From: Acidimicrobiaceae bacterium
Lineage (GTDB): Bacteria > Actinomycetota > Acidimicrobiia > Acidimicrobiales > RAAP-2
Reading direction: 5' to 3'
Assembly (NCBI GenBank): GCA_003158855.1
Contig: PMLJ01000018.1
Span: 1 to 53,499, forward strand
Length of the DNA stretch: 53,499 nt
A model generated the notes under the pieces. It saw only the letters and a program-made list of their open reading frames with translations. It was not told the origin of the DNA and did not search any database. The first letter of the stretch is position 1. Each line of letters begins with the position of its first letter. Of the stretch, positions 25,445 through 47,751 are shown piece by piece. A program made the position numbers and the translations under genes.

Positions 25445-26575
25445 TCAGGACAATGCTTGCGCCAGGTCTCGGATCAGATCATCCACGTCTTCGATGCCGA
25501 CGCTCAAGCGAACGAGGCTCGCCGGCGGTTCGAGCGTCGAACCCGCGGTCGAGGCGTGCGTCATGACGGCCGGGAGTTCGATGAGGCTCTCCACGCCACC
25601 GAGGGACTCGGCCAGCGTGAAGACCGACGTCATTTCGCAGACGTTGCGCGCCTTCGCGGCCCCGCCCTTCAGTGTGAAACTGACCATGCCCCCGAAGTCG
25701 CTCATTTGGGCAGCGGCGACCTCGTGACTGGGATGGGTCGCGAGACCCGGGTAGTAGACCCTCTCAACCGCGTCGTGACGCGAAAGGTACTCGGCGACGG
25801 CTCGCGCGTTCGAGCAGTGACGCTCCATGCGGATGCCGAGGGTCTTCAACCCCCGGATGAGCAGGTAGCAGTCGAGAGGTCCGGGCACGGCACCGATGGC
25901 GTACTGGTGGAACTTCAGTTTGGCCGCGAGCTCGTCGCTGCTCGTCGCGACAAATCCCCCGATCACGTCGGAGTGCCCGCCGACGTACTTCGTCGTCGAG
26001 TGAACGACCACGTCCGCGCCGAGGGTGAGGGGGCGCTGCAGAAACGGGGTCGCGAACGTGTTGTCAACCACCAAGAGCGCTTCGTGCTTGTGCGCGATGG
26101 CGGCCAGATCCTTGATCGACACCACGTTCAACAAGGGATTGCTCGGCGTCTCGACCCAGAGCATCTTGGTCGACTTGTCGAAGGACGCTCGAACGCCATC
26201 AAGGTCGCTCAGGTCAACGCACGAGATGGTGACACCCCACTCACCGAAGATCCTGGTGAGCAGCCGGTAGGTACCGCCGTAGGCGTCATTGCCGAGCACG
26301 ACGTGGTCACCGGGCGCGAGCGTGCGCAGCAGCGCGTCCTCGCCGGCGAGTCCCGATGCGAACGCTATCCCGTGGCTTGCGCCTTCGAGGTCGGCGAGGC
26401 ACGTTTCGAGTGCCGCCCTCGTGGGGTTGTCGACCCGCGAATAGTCGCTGAACCTCGGGATCCCGACGCCGTCTTGGGCGTAGGTCGAAGTGAGATACAC
26501 GGGCGGATTCACCGCACCGGTAACAGGATCGGGCTCTGAGCCCACGTGAATCGCCCGAGTGTTGAATCCGGTCAT
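25445..26575 (-). CDS. Cystathionine gamma-lyase / gamma-synthase family enzyme
   Basis: 376 residues. K196 in HSTTKYVGGHSD binds PLP; YSRVDNPTRAALE near 45, ETPSNPLL near 142 and SLGGVESLIELPAVMTH near 328 are the gamma-family motifs. Immediately downstream of and overlapping by one base with the cystathionine beta-synthase gene, which points to gamma-lyase activity: cystathionine to cysteine in reverse transsulfuration. Sequence alone does not exclude gamma-synthase (metB). Confidence 0.92.
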   Translation of the reverse strand: MTGFNTRAIHVGSEPDPVTGAVNPPVYLTSTYAQDGVGIPRFSDYSRVDNPTRAALETCLADLEGASHGIAFASGLAGEDALLRTLAPGDHVVLGNDAYGGTYRLLTRIFGEWGVTISCVDLSDLDGVRASFDKSTKMLWVETPSNPLLNVVSIKDLAAIAHKHEALLVVDNTFATPFLQRPLTLGADVVVHSTTKYVGGHSDVIGGFVATSSDELAAKLKFHQYAIGAVPGPLDCYLLIRGLKTLGIRMERHCSNARAVAEYLSRHDAVERVYYPGLATHPSHEVAAAQMSDFGGMVSFTLKGGAAKARNVCEMTSVFTLAESLGGVESLIELPAVMTHASTAGSTLEPPASLVRLSVGIEDVDDLIRDLAQALS

Positions 26576-27975
26576 TACTTGCTCCTCTGCTCCAGGTAAC
26601 CAAGCAGGTCGCTGCGCGTGAGCACGCCGACGGGATGACCACCGTCGAGCACGAGCAGGCCGGCGGTGGAGCTGAGACGCCGGGTGAGCTCGGTGACGCT
26701 CATGCCGACTCCGATCATCGGCATCGGGGGATCGGCGACGTCCTTCGCGCGAAGATCGAGCACCGCGGCGTCACGCATGGTCGCCTCGAGAAGTCCCAGC
26801 TCGCTGAGCGATCCCGACACCTCCTTCGCCGCCAGCGGCAACTCGTCGGTGACCGTCACCAGCAACTGGGAGACGTCGTTCCTTCGCATGACCGAAATCG
26901 CATCACGCACCAGCACGTCTTCGGTGACGAGCACCAGGTCGGCGAGCCCGTGCGACTGTCGCTTCGCCTTGGCTGCCAAGACGTCGCCCGCGTCCATCTC
27001 GTTGTGGGGACGCAGGAACCCGTAGTCGGTCATCCAGGCGTCGTTGAAGATCTTGGAAAGGTACCCTCGCCCGGAGTCGGGGATCAGCACGACGACGACG
27101 GCGTCCGCGGACTGGGCGGCCGCGACCTTCAATGCGGCGGCTACCGCGGTCCCTCCGGAGCCCCCGATTAGGATTCCCTCGCGCTGGGTCACCAGCCGGG
27201 CCATGGCGAATGCGTCGGCGTCGCTGACGGCGATGACTTCGTCCACAATCGACGGGTCGTAGTTACCCGGCCAGAAGTCCTCTCCCACTCCCTCGGTGAG
27301 ATACGGTCTCCCGGCTCCCCCCGAGAACACCGATCCTTCGGGATCGGCGGCGATGATCTTGATGTCGGGGTTCTGTTCCTTAAGGTACCGCCCGACTCCC
27401 GTGATCGTTCCCCCGGTCCCTGCACCCGCGACGAAGTGCGTCACGCGGCCCTTGGTCTGGCGCCAGATCTCAGGACCCGTGCTCTCGTAGTGAGACCTTG
27501 GATTGTTGGGATTCGAATACTGGTCCGGTCGAAACGAATTCGGCGTCTCCTTCGTCAACCGCTCGGCGGTCGAGTAGTACGAGTCGGGGTGTTCGGGCGC
27601 CACGGCGGTCGGGCAGACGACCACTTGGGCCCCGTAGGCGCGAAGCACGTCGATCTTCTCCGGAGCCATCTTGTCGCTCATGACGAAGATGCACTTGTAC
27701 CCCCGCTGGGCAGCGACTATCGCGAGCCCCACGCCGGTATTCCCGCTCGTCGGCTCGATGATCGTGGAGCCCGGGCCGAGCAGGCCGTCCCGCTCGGCGG
27801 CTTCGACCATGGTGAGGGCGGGCCGGTCCTTCGAGCTTCCGCCCGGATTCGTTGTTTCCAACTTTGCGATGAGGTCGCTCTGGAGTCCGGCGCCGATCTT
27901 GCCCAGTCGAACCATAGGGGTGTTGCCAATGAGCTCGAGTGGGCTACCAGCCACGTCCATGTCGGGAAAAGGCAT
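26575..27975 (-). CDS. Cystathionine beta-synthase with C-terminal CBS domains
   Basis: 466 residues. The N-terminal fold II PLP domain carries K49 in NPGGSSKDRPAL, SGNTGVGLAIVAA near 88 and the phosphate loop GAGTGGTITGVG near 188. EGSVFSGGAGRPYLTEGVGE is typical of CBS rather than cysteine synthase. Residues about 340-466 form a pair of CBS (Bateman) domains. It condenses serine and homocysteine to cystathionine and is the first gene of the transsulfuration operon. Upstream, a 6-bp hairpin (GAGAGG/CCTCTC) lies near 28012-28028; no riboswitch could be built. Confidence 0.95.
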   Translation of the reverse strand: MPFPDMDVAGSPLELIGNTPMVRLGKIGAGLQSDLIAKLETTNPGGSSKDRPALTMVEAAERDGLLGPGSTIIEPTSGNTGVGLAIVAAQRGYKCIFVMSDKMAPEKIDVLRAYGAQVVVCPTAVAPEHPDSYYSTAERLTKETPNSFRPDQYSNPNNPRSHYESTGPEIWRQTKGRVTHFVAGAGTGGTITGVGRYLKEQNPDIKIIAADPEGSVFSGGAGRPYLTEGVGEDFWPGNYDPSIVDEVIAVSDADAFAMARLVTQREGILIGGSGGTAVAAALKVAAAQSADAVVVVLIPDSGRGYLSKIFNDAWMTDYGFLRPHNEMDAGDVLAAKAKRQSHGLADLVLVTEDVLVRDAISVMRRNDVSQLLVTVTDELPLAAKEVSGSLSELGLLEATMRDAAVLDLRAKDVADPPMPMIGVGMSVTELTRRLSSTAGLLVLDGGHPVGVLTRSDLLGYLEQRSK

Positions 27976-28548: not shown

Positions 28549-30003
28549 TCAGGCTTGGAAGTTGGTGAACTGCCAATAGTCATCGTGGTCGAGGGTCCGC
28601 CCCGACCAACGATCGAACCAGTCAACCTTGGTCGTCACCGGGTCCCAGTCGAGGGGACCCGACCACGTCGTTCCCACGTACGGCAGCGCCACGTCGAGCA
28701 CCTGACGCCACGGCAACTCGTCCGGCACCCGCACACCCTCGCGCGGCGAGCGAAGCAGCCAGTCGATCGCGCCGAGGATCGACGCGGCGACCTGCACGGT
28801 CGTGGCGCTCTGGTGGGGAGCAGCCTCGCGGGCCTCTTCAACGGTCGTGAGCATCCCGGTCCACCACGACTTGTAGGGGTGGCCCATCAAGAGCACGCCC
28901 AGCTCGTCACTCCCGGCGATGATCTCGTCGTTCATGATCCGCTGGTTCTCGGGATAGTCGTACTGATTGCCTTCGAGTTCCACGAAGCTGGCCCACGCTG
29001 AGTCACTCGGGCAGTAGGCGTAGTGGACGGTTGGCCGGTACACCGGAACGTCGCCTTCCCATACGGTCAGGTGGTCGCAGATCGTGAAGGCCTCCCCGTG
29101 TCGAATCACCATGCCAACGATCTGACCCGACGGCACGCGCGAGCGGACCAACGTCTTGTGCGCCATCTGGGCGAGGCAGATCTGGTTGCGCGGACCGGCA
29201 CCTTCGTGCGCGTACGCCAGTTCCGGAAGGCGTTTCTCGTGGGTGCCCCATCCCATCTCCGCGGGAGCGACCCCCTCTTCATAGAAACCGTCGACGCTCC
29301 AGGTATTCACGAACTCACCGGGGAGCTTCGGACGATCGGTGATCTGCGTGTCGCGCTCGGCGACATGGATCACCTTCACGTCCAAGAGCTGGGCCAGGAC
29401 ATTGAAGCGCCCGTCGTCAAGCGCCTCGACAATGAGCGGGTGGCGCTCGCTCAGCAGGCCATCGCTCAGCACCCGCTGGGCGATCTCGACCAGCGCCTGC
29501 TTCGTGAGATGACTGACCAGACCCGGATTCGCCCCGTGTTCGACCACCGCAGATGGTCCATCGTTGCGGCCCCACTTCGCGAGTTGGCGACGAAGCTCCA
29601 TGTGGCGCCAGTACAGGGTCCTCTCCTGGGGCGACGTGGTCGCGGGATCGTGGTATGGATTCCACACTTCCACCGACGTATTGAGATAGCGGACGTTGTG
29701 GTCGCGGCACCAGTCGAGCAGCTCGCTCAGCCCAATGTTCCAAGCTAGGTCGATGAGGAGATCACCGTCGCCAAGGAAGGTCGAGAGCGTCTCCTCGAGG
29801 GTCTCCCGCGTTATCTCCAACTGCCGATACTGAACGCCCTTGTCGATGGAAGGGGAGATCCTCTCTCGATTATCACGACTCTCGATCACGGTGACTGCAG
29901 AGGGATCAAATCCGAATCTTTCCAGGAGGAGGGGTAGCAGGCACTGCGCCACCGAACCGCATCCAAGAATCACCACTCGGCCGGGCATTTGGTATTGGGA
30001 CAA
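28549..30003 (-). CDS. hss: Homospermidine synthase (saccharopine dehydrogenase-like)
   Basis: 484 residues. VVILGCGSVAQCLLPLLLER at 10-29 is the NAD site; LIDLAWNIG near 86, RYLNTSVEVWNPY near 105 and VVEHGANPGLVSHLTKQAL near 152 are typical of bacterial homospermidine synthase, which makes homospermidine from putrescine (and spermidine). The length matches the family (about 480). A decarboxylase and a ureohydrolase earlier in the window could supply putrescine, and PaiB/GNAT could control or acetylate polyamines, but none is linked in an operon. Confidence 0.88.
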   Translation of the reverse strand: MSQYQMPGRVVILGCGSVAQCLLPLLLERFGFDPSAVTVIESRDNRERISPSIDKGVQYRQLEITRETLEETLSTFLGDGDLLIDLAWNIGLSELLDWCRDHNVRYLNTSVEVWNPYHDPATTSPQERTLYWRHMELRRQLAKWGRNDGPSAVVEHGANPGLVSHLTKQALVEIAQRVLSDGLLSERHPLIVEALDDGRFNVLAQLLDVKVIHVAERDTQITDRPKLPGEFVNTWSVDGFYEEGVAPAEMGWGTHEKRLPELAYAHEGAGPRNQICLAQMAHKTLVRSRVPSGQIVGMVIRHGEAFTICDHLTVWEGDVPVYRPTVHYAYCPSDSAWASFVELEGNQYDYPENQRIMNDEIIAGSDELGVLLMGHPYKSWWTGMLTTVEEAREAAPHQSATTVQVAASILGAIDWLLRSPREGVRVPDELPWRQVLDVALPYVGTTWSGPLDWDPVTTKVDWFDRWSGRTLDHDDYWQFTNFQA

Positions 30004-41225: not shown

Positions 41226-42896
<1,671 letters not shown>

Positions 42897-42929: not shown

Positions 42930-43205
42930 CTAGCCGCCCGCAACTGCGGGGACCAGGGAAACCGTCTGGCCGGGATCGAGCACCGTATCGAGACCGTCGA
43001 GGAACCGAATGTCCTCGTCAGCGACGAAGACATTCACGAATCGGCGCAGCGCCCCGCGATCGTCGAGCACCCGAAAGGCAATGCCCGGGTAGGCCTCGTC
43101 AACTGCGTTAATGGCTTCGCGCACGGTCGTCGCCTCGACGGGAACCTCCCCGGCGCCGCCAACGAGCGCGCGCAGCTGGCTGGGCAGGCGGACTATGACG
43201 CTCAT
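42930..43205 (-). CDS. MoaD/ThiS-family sulfur-carrier-like protein
   Basis: 91 residues. The beta-grasp (ubiquitin-like) fold is seen from MSVIVRLPSQLRALVGG through VREAINAVDEAYPGIAFRVL, FVNVFVADEDIRFLDGLDTV and LDPGQTVSLVPAVAGG. It ends exactly in Gly-Gly, the residue pair that is adenylated and converted to a thiocarboxylate in sulfur carriers. It overlaps the threonine-synthase-like gene by ATGA and is co-transcribed with it under a SAM riboswitch. This points to a sulfur donor role for amino-acid synthesis rather than molybdopterin or thiamin. No MoeB/ThiF or JAMM protease gene is adjacent. Confidence 0.93.
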   Translation of the reverse strand: MSVIVRLPSQLRALVGGAGEVPVEATTVREAINAVDEAYPGIAFRVLDDRGALRRFVNVFVADEDIRFLDGLDTVLDPGQTVSLVPAVAGG

Positions 43206-44452
43206 GACGCTGACGACACTAACTGGTGGAAGCGCAATGCTTCTTCGGCGTCAGCGAGCGACGGCGAAATGGTCGACGAGAACGTCGCGGTGTCCACGAC
43301 GGCGTCGAGCGTCTTGAGGCCGTGGCCGGAGATGATCGCCACGATTGACTTGTCGGGGTCAATGGTGCCGCGGTTAATCATCTGGCGCAGCGAGGCAATA
43401 GTGACGCCTCCCGCGGTCTCGGCGAACACGCCCTCGGTCCTGGCGAGCAGGCCAATGCACTCGAGAATCTCGGAGTCGGGCACCGATCCGCAGTCGCCGC
43501 CATTGGCGCGCAGTTCGTCAAGCACGTACGGGCCATCCGCGGGGTTGCCAATCGCGAGCGAGCGGGCAATGGTGTTCGGACGCTGGGGGGTCACCACGTC
43601 GGCGCCCTCGGCGAAGGCCGTCGCGATCGGCGAGCAGCCCGTCGCCTGAGCCCCGAAGAGAACGGGTGCGTCGCCGTCAACGAGACCCAGTTCGATGAAC
43701 TCGCGAAAGCCCTTGGCGACCTTGGTCAACTGGCTGCCTGACGCCACCGGCACGACCACCTGGTCGGGCGTGCGCCATCCCAACTGCTCGCAGATCTCGA
43801 ACGCCAGGGTCTTGGAGCCTTCGGCGTAATAGGGACGCAGGTTCACGTTGGCGAAGGCCCAGTCGGGGTGCTCGGCGACCAGCTCGACACAGAGGCGGTT
43901 GACGTCGTCGTAGTTTCCCTCGACGCCGAGGACCGTTCCGCCAAAGATCGCGGTCATCGCGACCTTCGACTTCTCCAGGTCCGACGGGATGATCGCCACG
44001 CTTGGCCAGCCAATGAAGGCGGCGTGCGCGGCGACCGACGTGGCAAGGTTCCCCGTCGAAGCGCACGCGGCGGTTGAGAAACCAAGCCGACGAGCGCTCG
44101 AAAGGGCCACGGAGACCACGCGGTCCTTGAACGAACCGGTTGGGTTTCTCGTGTCGTCCTTCAGCCAGAGTTCCTTCACCCCGAGGACGTCCGCGAGGCG
44201 CGAGGCGCGACGCAGCGGCGTCCAGCCCGCCCCGAGGTCCACGGGCTCGACGCCCGGGTCCGGTAGCAGCGCGCCGTAGCGCCAGATTGAATTGGGGCCG
44301 TTCGCGATGGACTCGCGCGTGACCACGCCTTTGGCGCCCTCGATGTCGTAGGAGACCTCAAGGGGACCAAAGCAGTACTCGCACGAGTAGCGAGCCTCAG
44401 CAGGGTACGCGGTACCGCACTCTCGACATAGAAGACCTGTAGCGAAACTCAT
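43202..44452 (-). CDS. thrC: Threonine-synthase-like PLP enzyme, candidate homocysteine synthase
   Basis: 416 residues from ATG 44452. An N-terminal zinc ribbon (CRECGTAYPAEARYSCEYC, residues 9-27) is followed by a fold II PLP domain: NPTGSFKDR near 103 holds the PLP lysine and the ASTGNLATSVAAHAA phosphate loop is near 129. By family it converts O-phosphohomoserine to threonine. Two context facts argue for a sulfur-using variant: a SAM riboswitch in its leader and a coupled Gly-Gly sulfur-carrier-like gene. Homocysteine from O-phosphohomoserine and carrier thiocarboxylate is the hypothesis. The gene name follows sequence family only. GGGAG precedes the ATG by two bases. Extension to 44572 would overlap the riboswitch and is rejected. 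Confidence 0.88.
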   Translation of the reverse strand: MSFATGLLCRECGTAYPAEARYSCEYCFGPLEVSYDIEGAKGVVTRESIANGPNSIWRYGALLPDPGVEPVDLGAGWTPLRRASRLADVLGVKELWLKDDTRNPTGSFKDRVVSVALSSARRLGFSTAACASTGNLATSVAAHAAFIGWPSVAIIPSDLEKSKVAMTAIFGGTVLGVEGNYDDVNRLCVELVAEHPDWAFANVNLRPYYAEGSKTLAFEICEQLGWRTPDQVVVPVASGSQLTKVAKGFREFIELGLVDGDAPVLFGAQATGCSPIATAFAEGADVVTPQRPNTIARSLAIGNPADGPYVLDELRANGGDCGSVPDSEILECIGLLARTEGVFAETAGGVTIASLRQMINRGTIDPDKSIVAIISGHGLKTLDAVVDTATFSSTISPSLADAEEALRFHQLVSSAS

Positions 44453-44462
44453 AACTCCCTTT

Positions 44463-44564
44463 TCATCGTTCGGGCTTTGGCACCTGGTGTGATGAGCGGG
44501 TAGCTCGTGTATCACACTGGTTGTCGCGACTTCTGCGGGCCCGCCCCTCAGTCGCTCTTGATGA
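44463..44564 (-). ncRNA. SAM riboswitch (SAM-I clan, possibly SAM-I/IV type)
   Basis: Read on the minus strand the leader shows the conserved S-box order: ATCAAGAGC, then GAGGGGCGGGCCCGCAGAAG, GACAACC, GTGTGAT with its complement ATCACAC, and GGTGCCAAAGCCC. P1 is TCATC (44564-44560) with GATGA (44467-44463). P2 is GCGACT with AGTCGC, and P3 is GTGTGAT with ATCACAC. The P4 stem of classical SAM-I is lacking, as in SAM-I/IV variants. P1 closes 10 bases before the ATG, next to GGGAG, so ligand-bound RNA could block ribosome entry. Confidence 0.9.
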
Positions 44565-44571
44565 CCTCTCA

Positions 44572-44600
44572 ATTCTTACTGGTCCGGCCGCCTTTGTCAA
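44572..44600 (-). promoter_or_regulatory. Promoter of the riboswitch transcript
   Basis: On the minus strand TTGACA (44600-44595), 17 bases, then AAGAAT (44577-44572, within TAAGAAT). The predicted +1 is 44565, one base before the first P1 nucleotide, so the aptamer forms the very 5' end of the mRNA. Confidence 0.8.
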
Positions 44601-44636: not shown

Positions 44637-45413
44637 ATGACGACTTCAGAGGTGCCGTGGACCCTCAACCGAGAGGATTTCGATCTCGCGAGGGTGACAA
44701 TGCTCAAGCAGTCCACTTCCATCGCGGTCGTCATCCCGGCGAAGAACGAAGCCAACACGATTGGGGCGGTCCTCGATGCCGTTCGCCACTACCCCGAGTT
44801 CGTCGACGAGCTCGTGGTGATCAACGATCACTCCAATGACGACACGATGACCGTGGCCGACCACCACGGCGCCCGGGTCATCGCGCTTCTCGGGCGAAGC
44901 GGCAAGGGCGAAGCCATGCAGGCCGGCCTTAAGGCGACCACGTCGGAGATTGTCGTGTTTCTCGACGCCGACGTCCTCAACACGAGCCCCGAGTTCGTGC
45001 CCCGCCTCGTCCAGCCCCTGCTTGAACGGAGAGGTATCGAGCTCGTCAAGGGCTACTACGACCGCCCGCTGCACAACATGCCCACCGGCGGAGGCCGGGT
45101 AAACGAGCTCGCCGCCCGCCCGATACTTTCGCTGCTCTATCCGGGCCTCGGCGAGGTGCGTCAACCCCTCGCCGGCGAAACTGCGGGACGACGCAGCGCC
45201 TTCGAGTCCATCAGGTTCGAATCCGCCTACGGCGTCGAGATCGCGCTGCTCATCGACATTGCTCAACAGTACGGCGTGCACAGCCTGGCCCAGGTCGATC
45301 TTGGCGTTCGTCGTCATCGCAACCGGCCCCTGGAGGAACTGCGCCCAATGGCGGTTGACGTCCTACGAGCAGCGCTCGGCCGCTTTCGAGTCGCGCTGCC
45401 TCCGCAGATCTGA
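44637..45413 (+). CDS. gpgS: Glucosyl-3-phosphoglycerate synthase-like glycosyltransferase
   Basis: 258 residues. GT-A fold: VVIPAKNEANTIGAVLDAVR at 31-50, VVINDHSNDDT near 60, and DAD at 110-112 for the metal. ARPILSLLYPGLGEVRQPLA followed by GE near 160-180 and YGVEIALLIDI near 200 match GpgS (GT81), which transfers glucose to 3-phosphoglycerate, the first step of glucosylglycerate and methylglucose lipopolysaccharide synthesis. The length is somewhat below that of mycobacterial GpgS (about 320), so a related GT2 role is possible. TAGCCT lies seven bases before the ATG. Confidence 0.8.
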   Translation: MTTSEVPWTLNREDFDLARVTMLKQSTSIAVVIPAKNEANTIGAVLDAVRHYPEFVDELVVINDHSNDDTMTVADHHGARVIALLGRSGKGEAMQAGLKATTSEIVVFLDADVLNTSPEFVPRLVQPLLERRGIELVKGYYDRPLHNMPTGGGRVNELAARPILSLLYPGLGEVRQPLAGETAGRRSAFESIRFESAYGVEIALLIDIAQQYGVHSLAQVDLGVRRHRNRPLEELRPMAVDVLRAALGRFRVALPPQI

Positions 45414-46191: not shown

Positions 46192-47595
46192 CTACTTGAC
46201 GAAGATTTCAACGCGGCGAAACATGGCGATTGTTGAGCCCTTGATGGCGCCTTCCCCCGCTGACCTCATGGTCACGCTCTTCGCGTGGATTGTGGCAAGT
46301 TGCCCCCGCAAGTAGAAGACGACCGAAATCGCCCGCTTGGCGCTGATCGTCATGTTGAGGGCCGATGAACCGCTCCCGGTCGCGTAGCCGTAGAGGGACG
46401 CGGAATCGTATCTCTTCGACTTCATGGCCAAGGCGATTCTCCGAATCTGGATCTTCAGAGCACCATTAAGCGCGCTAGAGCCATTGGCAAACGGCCCGAT
46501 TGCACCGATTAGAAGAGACTGACCCTTGCCCAGTTTGTTCGCCGACCACTGGGCGTAAAGAGTCATCGTGCTGCTCAAAGTGAACTTCGCCCCGCTCGAG
46601 AATGAAGTCCCGCTCGCGTCCGTGGACGTATTCCACCCAGCGAAGGAGTAGCCGGGGTAGGTGAACTTGCTGGCGATTGGAAGAGTCACCGTACTACCCT
46701 CCAAACCAGTAAGCGCTGCAATTGAACCAGCACCGTGATTGGAGGAGAACCGCAATGTCACCGTTGGATTGGCGGTCCACTGCGCATAGATGACGACTGA
46801 CGAAGTTGGGACGAATGAAGCGCCGGCCAAGCCCAAAAAGGCTCCGCCGCTCGGCGCGCTGTACCAACCGCTGAACGTGTAGCCAGGCTTGGTGATTCCC
46901 TCAATCGAGGGCAGCAAGACAGACGATCCTGACGAAAGTGAGATTGGACTGAGGGGACCTGCTCCGCCGCCGCCATTCAGCGTAATGACGATGGTGGAAG
47001 TTGAGGGCGGAGAAGTTGCGCCATTCGCCGTCCACTGGGCGTAGAGAGTCGGAGCGCTGTTCAGCACGAAGCTCGCTCCGGCACTGTACGAGGTGCCTCC
47101 ACCGTTAGGCGACGTGTTCCAACCGTTGAAAGTGTTATTGGCATAAGTCAGCGATCCAGCGCCAGGCAAGAAGATCAACGATCCAGCTGAGCCCGAAACA
47201 GGAGATGTTATGCCAACTCCACCATTAGGAGAGAACGTCAACAACCCGACGTTTACTGTCCACTGTGCATAGAGCGTGAGGTCAGCGCTGAATGAATACA
47301 GCGCGCCGTCTGCGTAGGTGGTCCCACTTCCATTCGCCGAGGTATTCCAATCTGAGAATTGGTGACCAGGATTGCTAAAGGATGGACTCAGCGCGGCGAA
47401 CAGTGTCAGATCCGCTGGCGCATTGAGAGTCAGGAACGTGCTAACTGTGTCCGACGGACTGTCATTCTCCATGAACGTGACCGGATGAAATGGGTTGACT
47501 CCGAACACAACAGTCGGTAGCGACAATCCAACGATAAATGAGACCAAGAGTGCGGCCGTGAAACGGCGCGCGGCAGTTCGTAACCTATGACGCAT
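46192..47595 (-). CDS. Secreted protein with four InlB B-repeats and an OmpA-like tail
   Basis: 467 residues from ATG 47595, with AGGAA upstream. Signal peptide: RRFTAALLVSFIVGLSLPTVVFG. Four Listeria-Bacteroides (InlB B/Flg_new) repeats follow, each ending in YAQWT or YAQWS, near residues 110, 190, 277 and 355, and each with a W-(N/Y)-(T/S)-x-x-x-G-x-(G/S/A) core. The C-terminal 100 residues (KRAISVVFYLRGQL, GEGAIKGSTIAMFRRVEIFV) look like an OmpA-like peptidoglycan-binding domain. Such repeats bind surfaces. It is richer in AT, Ser and Thr than its neighbours, which may signal transfer, and it lies next to a tRNA. No integrase is visible. Confidence 0.85.
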   Translation of the reverse strand: MRHRLRTAARRFTAALLVSFIVGLSLPTVVFGVNPFHPVTFMENDSPSDTVSTFLTLNAPADLTLFAALSPSFSNPGHQFSDWNTSANGSGTTYADGALYSFSADLTLYAQWTVNVGLLTFSPNGGVGITSPVSGSAGSLIFLPGAGSLTYANNTFNGWNTSPNGGGTSYSAGASFVLNSAPTLYAQWTANGATSPPSTSTIVITLNGGGGAGPLSPISLSSGSSVLLPSIEGITKPGYTFSGWYSAPSGGAFLGLAGASFVPTSSVVIYAQWTANPTVTLRFSSNHGAGSIAALTGLEGSTVTLPIASKFTYPGYSFAGWNTSTDASGTSFSSGAKFTLSSTMTLYAQWSANKLGKGQSLLIGAIGPFANGSSALNGALKIQIRRIALAMKSKRYDSASLYGYATGSGSSALNMTISAKRAISVVFYLRGQLATIHAKSVTMRSAGEGAIKGSTIAMFRRVEIFVK

Positions 47596-47751
47596 CAACG
47601 TTCCTATTCGTAGAGGAATGTGCGTCTGGGCAAACAGCCGTACTTACAACATCTCCAAGACCGCGTTTAGCTTTCGTGCCACGGGGCGAGAGACGATTCG
47701 ATATCAACGCGAATCATAACCACATCGGTCGCGAGAACACGACCAACGAAA

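Follow-up and report, generated by a model that had tools for sequence, protein, structure and literature searches.

A MetM/MetO operon with a SAM riboswitch as a probable route to homocysteine with carrier-borne sulfur in an Acidimicrobiaceae bacterium

Does a threonine synthase homologue whose gene overlaps that of a small sulfur carrier protein, behind a SAM riboswitch, make threonine or homocysteine? This question is raised by a locus of an Acidimicrobiaceae bacterium, which we analysed within a window comprising the whole 53,499-nucleotide stretch of DNA. A sequence-only reading had favoured homocysteine over threonine, and this view appears well founded, as it draws support from gene content, phylogeny, a residue signature, regulation and a reciprocal distribution of metX. 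In our assessment the locus is, with a probability of about 0.88, a MetM/MetO operon that makes homocysteine with carrier-borne sulfur, gated by SAM and serving as one of two homocysteine routes in this organism. The MetM/MetO system is already known from Streptomyces, and the window operon has the same parts.

The open reading frames, coordinates, ATGA overlap and terminal Gly-Gly described in the sequence-only reading were all borne out on the sequence (Table 1). The start of metO overlaps the stop of metM (ATGA, 43202-43205), and groEL follows 81 nt beyond metO. A single promoter-like site was found, compared with a mean of 0.2 in shuffled sequences, and it is a consensus match only; given its position, the transcript would be expected to start near the first base of the aptamer. 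Elsewhere in the window, an open reading frame at 46192-47598 (minus strand) encodes a 468-aa protein whose repeats around GWNT and TLYAQW look by eye like the InlB-B/Listeria-Bacteroides type, and a 484-aa open reading frame at 28549-30003 (minus strand) appears by eye to be homospermidine synthase-like.

Table 1. Features at and around the metM-metO locus, in window positions.
Feature	Position	Strand	Description
Promoter-like TTGACA-17-AAGAAT	44572..44600	-	Consensus match only, 10/12 positions
SAM-I (S-box) riboswitch aptamer	44460..44567	-	RF00162 profile
Shine-Dalgarno-like AAGGGAG	44455..44461	-	Directly 3′ of P1, across the aptamer end; from sequence
metM	43202..44452	-	416 aa; fold-type-II PLP enzyme with N-terminal Cys4 motif; threonine synthase homologue, MetM group
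metO	42930..43205	-	91 aa; ubiquitin-fold sulfur carrier protein, C-terminal PAVAGG
groEL	41226..42848	-	Conserved neighbour downstream of metO; outside the pathway
Glycosyltransferase-like gene	44637..45413	+	Opposite flank, recurs at the locus; product named by eye

The SAM control that had been claimed for the gene pair is upheld by an aptamer directly upstream of metM, which scores 50.8 bits against RF00162 (gathering score 44.4; E 8.6e-9), with its P4 region reduced and mostly missing against the model. Of 217 first-look candidates in the genome, 150 were scored, and no other SAM riboswitch was found among them. Seven nucleotides separate the aptamer from the metM ATG, and the Shine-Dalgarno-like element at the aptamer edge is likely the regulated site. 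A terminator-type expression platform was rejected in view of this 7-nt gap and because the minus strand between 42600 and 44800 gave no terminator-like site. As the anatomy suggests, high SAM would fold the aptamer and set its P1 helix against the metM ribosome-binding site, turning both genes off. The minimum-energy fold of the leader hides the ribosome-binding site without any ligand (z -0.72); it is uninformative, and we dropped it as a source for the switch mechanism. Among relatives, SAM riboswitches were also seen 8-9 nt before a GNAT acetyltransferase-like open reading frame (by eye), an unusual target, in G032 (L166, 15-101) and G075 (L169, 1273-1360), and one in G003, a metX-bearing genome without metM, precedes metY-metX and not metM (L141, 1582-1670).

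MetM belongs to the PALP family (PF00291, E 9.4e-72), and its six best profile matches are threonine synthase models, including the TIGR00260 thrC model at 268 bits (cut-off 167). A reading of MetM as CysM was rejected, as a cysteine synthase profile is not the best match and a Mec-CysO-CysM set sits elsewhere in the genome, on contig C46. Maximum-likelihood analysis placed 38 MetM rows, together with three diverged variants, on one side of a branch with 100/100 support and 28 ThrC rows on the other; the MetM side includes rows from Streptomyces, Jiangella, Kutzneria and Nitrospira, and the window MetM is placed with that of an Acidimicrobiaceae MAG. The tree drew on 32 of the 80 loci described below, with one pair of rows identical and the S. 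albulus MetM sequence outside the set.

A residue signature marks the same division. We compared 79 MetM rows (78 loci and the window, omitting L043 and L070, which are cut inside metM) with 28 ThrC rows, namely the window genome's own and 27 from the loci of relatives. A Cys4 motif (C9, C12, C24, C27) is present in all 79 MetM rows and in none of the ThrC rows, and five residues fixed in all 28 ThrC rows (T98, S165, N167, R170 and N198, numbered as in the window genome's own ThrC) are L136, N204, R206, Y209 and S238 in all 79 MetM rows. The window MetM carries none of the five ThrC residues, retains the PLP lysine K109 and has all 25 checked residues. When aligned to Thermus ThrC (1uim), T98, S165, R170 and N198 correspond to T88, S155, R160 and N188, which we take, as a lead only, to be phosphate-binding; a literature search found no paper on phosphate binding by threonine synthase. 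We infer that MetM may retain phosphate elimination and may have lost the arrangement that lets the retained phosphate assist the addition of water.

The partner protein, MetO, has a ThiS/MoaD fold with a C-terminal GG (ThiS, PF02597, E 4.7e-13), and CysO (3dwg_C) is among its best solved-structure matches. In a scan of named genomes, 589 encoded a relative, and 80 loci were kept. Within these, the bare GG tail of the window MetO is shared by most near relatives; the 12 Streptomyces loci have GG in five and GGC in seven, and half of the 10 Nitrospira-type loci have longer tails. A motif fitting a JAMM protease, matched with our own pattern and not with a profile, occurs in 10 Nitrospira-type loci of the 80; two further matches (L085, L099) are upstream of metM and look unrelated. 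At the Nitrospira locus L087, metM, metO, a NIL-like small gene, a MoeB/ThiF-type gene and a JAMM gene form one run, the last three identified by eye, and tblastn matches of E1 and JAMM type stand in the same order at L079. A tail-trimming JAMM was rejected as a requirement of the system, as the window MetO ends in a bare GG and the motif is mainly found in the 10 Nitrospira-type loci.

A MetO-like gene lies downstream of metM at 75 of the 80 loci, many of them overlapping or abutting, and a SAM aptamer lies upstream of metM at 36 of the 40 loci scanned (it was not found at L046, L079, L087 or L098); the arrangement is therefore not due to chance. Contig ends account for three of the five loci without a downstream MetO-like gene. 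At the other two of the 77 loci with downstream sequence, L067 (a Frankiales MAG) and L071 (Kutzneria), no metO was found within about 3 kb; the metM of each has a SAM riboswitch. At two Streptomyces loci that we examined (L077, L078), the riboswitch, metM and metO are followed about 0.9 kb on by groEL, with the glycosyltransferase-like flank also in place, which agrees with the statement of the sequence-only reading that the groEL-adjacent order is common to other actinobacteria.

The two loci without metO nearby would fit an enzyme that makes homocysteine from free sulfide, with MetO as an accessory or delivery booster as in dual-donor enzymes, and the MetO-type carriers that relatives encode without metM (see below) point the same way. 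We consider this unlikely. The consistent retention of metO downstream of metM, often with overlapping or abutting genes, argues against it, and thiocarboxylated MetO is said to be the sulfur donor in the 2024 study of Hasebe and colleagues.

Homocysteine synthesis with carrier-borne sulfur also finds its other components in the genome of the window (G000; 2.7 Mb, 50 contigs, 96.5% complete). The sequence-only reading had suggested looking there for a second, classical thrC and for MoeZ, and a second thrC and a rhodanese-ThiF E1 are present. A separate threonine synthase (TIGR00260, 308.6 bits) lies beside homoserine dehydrogenase (hom-thrC) on another contig (L016), and the E1 (L015, 6894-8057; PRK08762, 563 bits, cut-off 449) has its ThiF part at residues 119-366 and, by eye, the rhodanese part N-terminal to it. 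Two further ThiF matches are weaker (91 and 38 bits; L017, L018), and a thrB gene for homoserine kinase was found as well (179.9 bits, cut-off 168); metH and metE lie outside this inventory. In the window, a cystathionine beta-synthase gene (TIGR01137, 552 bits) overlaps head to tail with one of the cystathionine gamma-synthase/lyase type (25445-27975, minus strand), which suggests reverse transsulfuration.

The same reading had raised the absence of a classical homocysteine route as something to check, and here the result went the other way: metX and metY are adjacent in this genome (NF047917, 509 bits; PRK07812, 765 bits; both above curated cut-offs). MetM is therefore unnecessary to explain methionine in this organism and would be the SAM-gated one of two homocysteine routes. 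Many Streptomyces are not known to have a canonical homocysteine route, a trait that the window genome, with its metX-metY pair, does not share; the absence of a canonical route is thus a common accompaniment of MetM and not a defining feature. In a MetX tree (17 of the 43 found), the MetX of the window genome groups with those of G055, G074, G067 and G003 (100/99) and the 12 others form a separate group (100/99), with most inner forks weak; this suggests that a second type of MetX may exist, that of the window genome included.

With these parts, the following route can be proposed. The rhodanese-ThiF E1, encoded elsewhere, would adenylate and sulfurate the bare GG of MetO to give the thiocarboxylate. 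MetM, judging by its homology, would bind O-phosphohomoserine as a PLP aldimine and eliminate phosphate as threonine synthase does; it would then add the MetO thiocarboxylate at C-gamma, in place of water at C-beta. Homocysteine could be freed from MetO by hydrolysis, or via a JAMM protease after an S-to-N acyl shift.

To see how the operon is distributed relative to metX, we took an even sample of 79 genomes from the order, the window genome among them, each with a completeness of 90% or more. For homocysteine routes the survey covered two genes, metX, counted from E 1e-60 (matches of 390-465 bits), and metY, counted from E 1e-100, where every match exceeds the cut-off; metA and DUF39 were outside it. 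The TIGR01392 cut-off was reached by no metX match in the 79 genomes or 14 controls. Pairs were drawn from the TIGR00260 rows over the cut-off and three below it and from the best 62 of 116 rows of the MetO model, and the riboswitch filters were strict, so that weak riboswitches are lost. In 39 of the 79 genomes a MetO-type gene comes after a TIGR00260 gene, and 36 of these have a SAM aptamer upstream of the pair. When this riboswitch-MetM-MetO arrangement is set against metX, 33 genomes have the operon only, 40 have metX only, three have both and three have neither (Fisher p = 3.0e-15, ignoring relatedness). Four families (f1, f14, f28, f38) each hold both a metX-less MetM genome and a metX genome.

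Both metX and metY are missing from 32 of the 36 operon genomes; G013 has metY only, and G000, G055 and G074 have both genes. MetM/MetO may therefore explain methionine synthesis in many relatives, and, as curated models label metM a threonine synthase, genomes that rely on MetM could look like methionine auxotrophs. In each of the 33 MetM-only genomes the thrC model, which omits the first ~55 residues, is matched over nearly its whole length without a stop. Another ThrC over the cut-off was found in 35 of the 36 operon genomes among the matches listed, and thrB in 31, with none at E 1e-10 in the other five. The 43 genomes without the operon comprise 40 with metX, G020 with metY only, and G050 and G059 with neither gene. 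In G059, a genome of the same genus (1.7 Mb, 97% complete), no MetO-type carrier (E 1e-12), metX or metY was found, and thrB and one thrC are present; it is a possible methionine auxotroph.

The metX-metY pair of the window genome raises the alternative that the operon is a relic there, or is being replaced. Two other metX-bearing genomes, G067 and G074, have metM frameshifted in their assemblies, and three more (G004, G037, G073) carry a diverged metM on a long branch (L153, L154, L155), changed at the positions of K163, T243 and GLK (378-380) in the window MetM, that adjoins metO and groEL and at which no riboswitch was found. We think such decay distinctly unlikely for the window operon, as its metM, metO and aptamer are intact, with every checked MetM residue in place, and metM is intact in the metX-bearing G055 too. 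The dN/dS of metM, at 0.048-0.064 relative to four near relatives (not sorted by metX), also argues against it; relative to two more distant relatives it is 0.087-0.114.

Carriers of the MetO type are not confined to the operon. Among the best 62 of 116 carrier rows, 22 high-scoring MetO-type proteins have no adjacent metM, and in 20 of the genomes concerned, all metX-bearing except G020, this gene lies within 2 kb of groEL: 17 are within 260 nt (that of G061 on the opposite strand), and those of G001, G009 and G077 are at 1.6-2 kb. The remaining two are at a contig edge (G017) and between Mec and CysM, the latter being CysO (G050). Seven lower-scoring carriers comprise six of CysO type and one beside groEL (G022). 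When G050 is left out and G022 included, 18 of the 22 carriers end in a bare GG and three in GG plus a short tail; that of G022 is longer and without a terminal GG. In six of the 20 genomes (G010, G020, G048, G051, G057, G077) the glycosyltransferase-like flank is directly on the opposite side, as if only metM and the riboswitch were missing. Loss of metM is the simpler reading, because Streptomyces has the full arrangement too. Since metO is kept near groEL without metM, MetO probably serves another enzyme besides MetM, which raises the question of what else this carrier feeds. In mycobacteria one E1, MoeZR, is shared by several carriers (PMC3227635).

One further result bears on threonine. 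No second ThrC over the cut-off was found in the MetM-bearing G012 (99% complete) among the matches listed; of all our results this one speaks most clearly against a role in methionine synthesis alone, and threonine synthesis by MetM may be conceivable there. A homologue from Microcystis, which shares 51.6% identity with S. albulus MetM and is encoded next to a carrier-protein gene resembling S. albulus metO, shows weak threonine synthase and threonine deaminase activity in vitro and had no clear MetM role in cells, the homocysteine test having used sodium sulfide (PMC12172450). These observations, together with the TIGR00260 label and with carriers that may have other clients, could mean that MetM is an ordinary threonine synthase alongside ThrC, or one that doubles as a threonine deaminase, and that the carrier serves another enzyme; we hold this to be highly improbable given the separate ThrC in nearly all MetM genomes, the SAM riboswitch at most metM-metO pairs, the near mutual exclusion of operon and metX and the group-wide replacement of ThrC-fixed residues, and on the residue signature, the separate ThrC and SAM control a plain threonine synthase was set aside.

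The homocysteine reading bears on a known gap. Price et al. 2018 (PMC5764234) name Acidimicrobium ferrooxidans DSM 10331 as an autotroph that has none of the known routes to homocysteine; Aquifex aeolicus and Pyrolobus fumarii are the other two organisms with this gap in that paper. In G028, which we have taken to be this organism, we found a SAM aptamer, metM (24 of 25 checked residues), a metO ending in GG, groEL and a separate thrC, with a thrB match at 151.7 bits, below the cut-off of 168; neither metX nor metY was found in it. If G028 is that organism, the MetM/MetO route would close its homocysteine gap, a matter that is now directly testable. A literature search found no paper tying MetM/MetO to Acidimicrobium; Hasebe et al. 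2024 may have done so.

A broader picture can be drawn to which we give even odds. The riboswitch and metM would form a removable module of the groEL locus, one that genomes with metX have usually lost or carry in frameshifted or diverged form (intact exceptions are G000 and G055), with metO often kept; MetO would be a general sulfur carrier, not dedicated to methionine, that feeds one or more other enzymes, such as a cysteine synthase; the window genome would run two parallel homocysteine routes, of which only the carrier-fed one is controlled by SAM; and the module would close the A. ferrooxidans gap.

How does the window operon compare with known systems? The Streptomyces MetM report that the sequence-only reading mentioned does exist: as cited in PMC12172450, the only paper treating MetM that the literature search found, Hasebe et al. 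2024 (AEM 90:e01247-24) identified MetM as a Streptomyces homocysteine synthase that converts O-phosphohomoserine to homocysteine, and the same text places a SAM riboswitch upstream of S. albulus metM. As described there, S. albulus MetM/MetO resembles the window operon in its threonine synthase homologue, carrier gene and upstream SAM riboswitch. The window differs in that its aptamer ends 7 nt before the ATG and its genome also has metX-metY; its MetO has a bare GG whereas seven of the 12 Streptomyces loci have GGC, and groEL is at 81 nt and not at ~0.9 kb. In Wolinella a protein thiocarboxylate is reportedly also the sulfur donor for homocysteine, but the enzyme is said to be MetY, not a threonine synthase homologue, acting on a different substrate, O-acetylhomoserine, with a JAMM enzyme. 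This HcyS/HcyF/HcyD route of Wolinella succinogenes (Krishnamoorthy & Begley 2011) is mentioned in PMC5764234. The CysM/CysO/Mec system of Mycobacterium tuberculosis likewise pairs a fold-type-II PLP enzyme with a GG-ended carrier that feeds it; its product, however, is cysteine, and a separate Mec-CysO-CysM set is encoded elsewhere in the window genome. Finally, classical ThrC (1uim, 6cgq, 2zsj, 2d1f) shares with MetM the family, the PLP lysine and the probable substrate, but the 28 ThrC compared have no Cys4 motif and differ from MetM by fixed changes in conserved loops.
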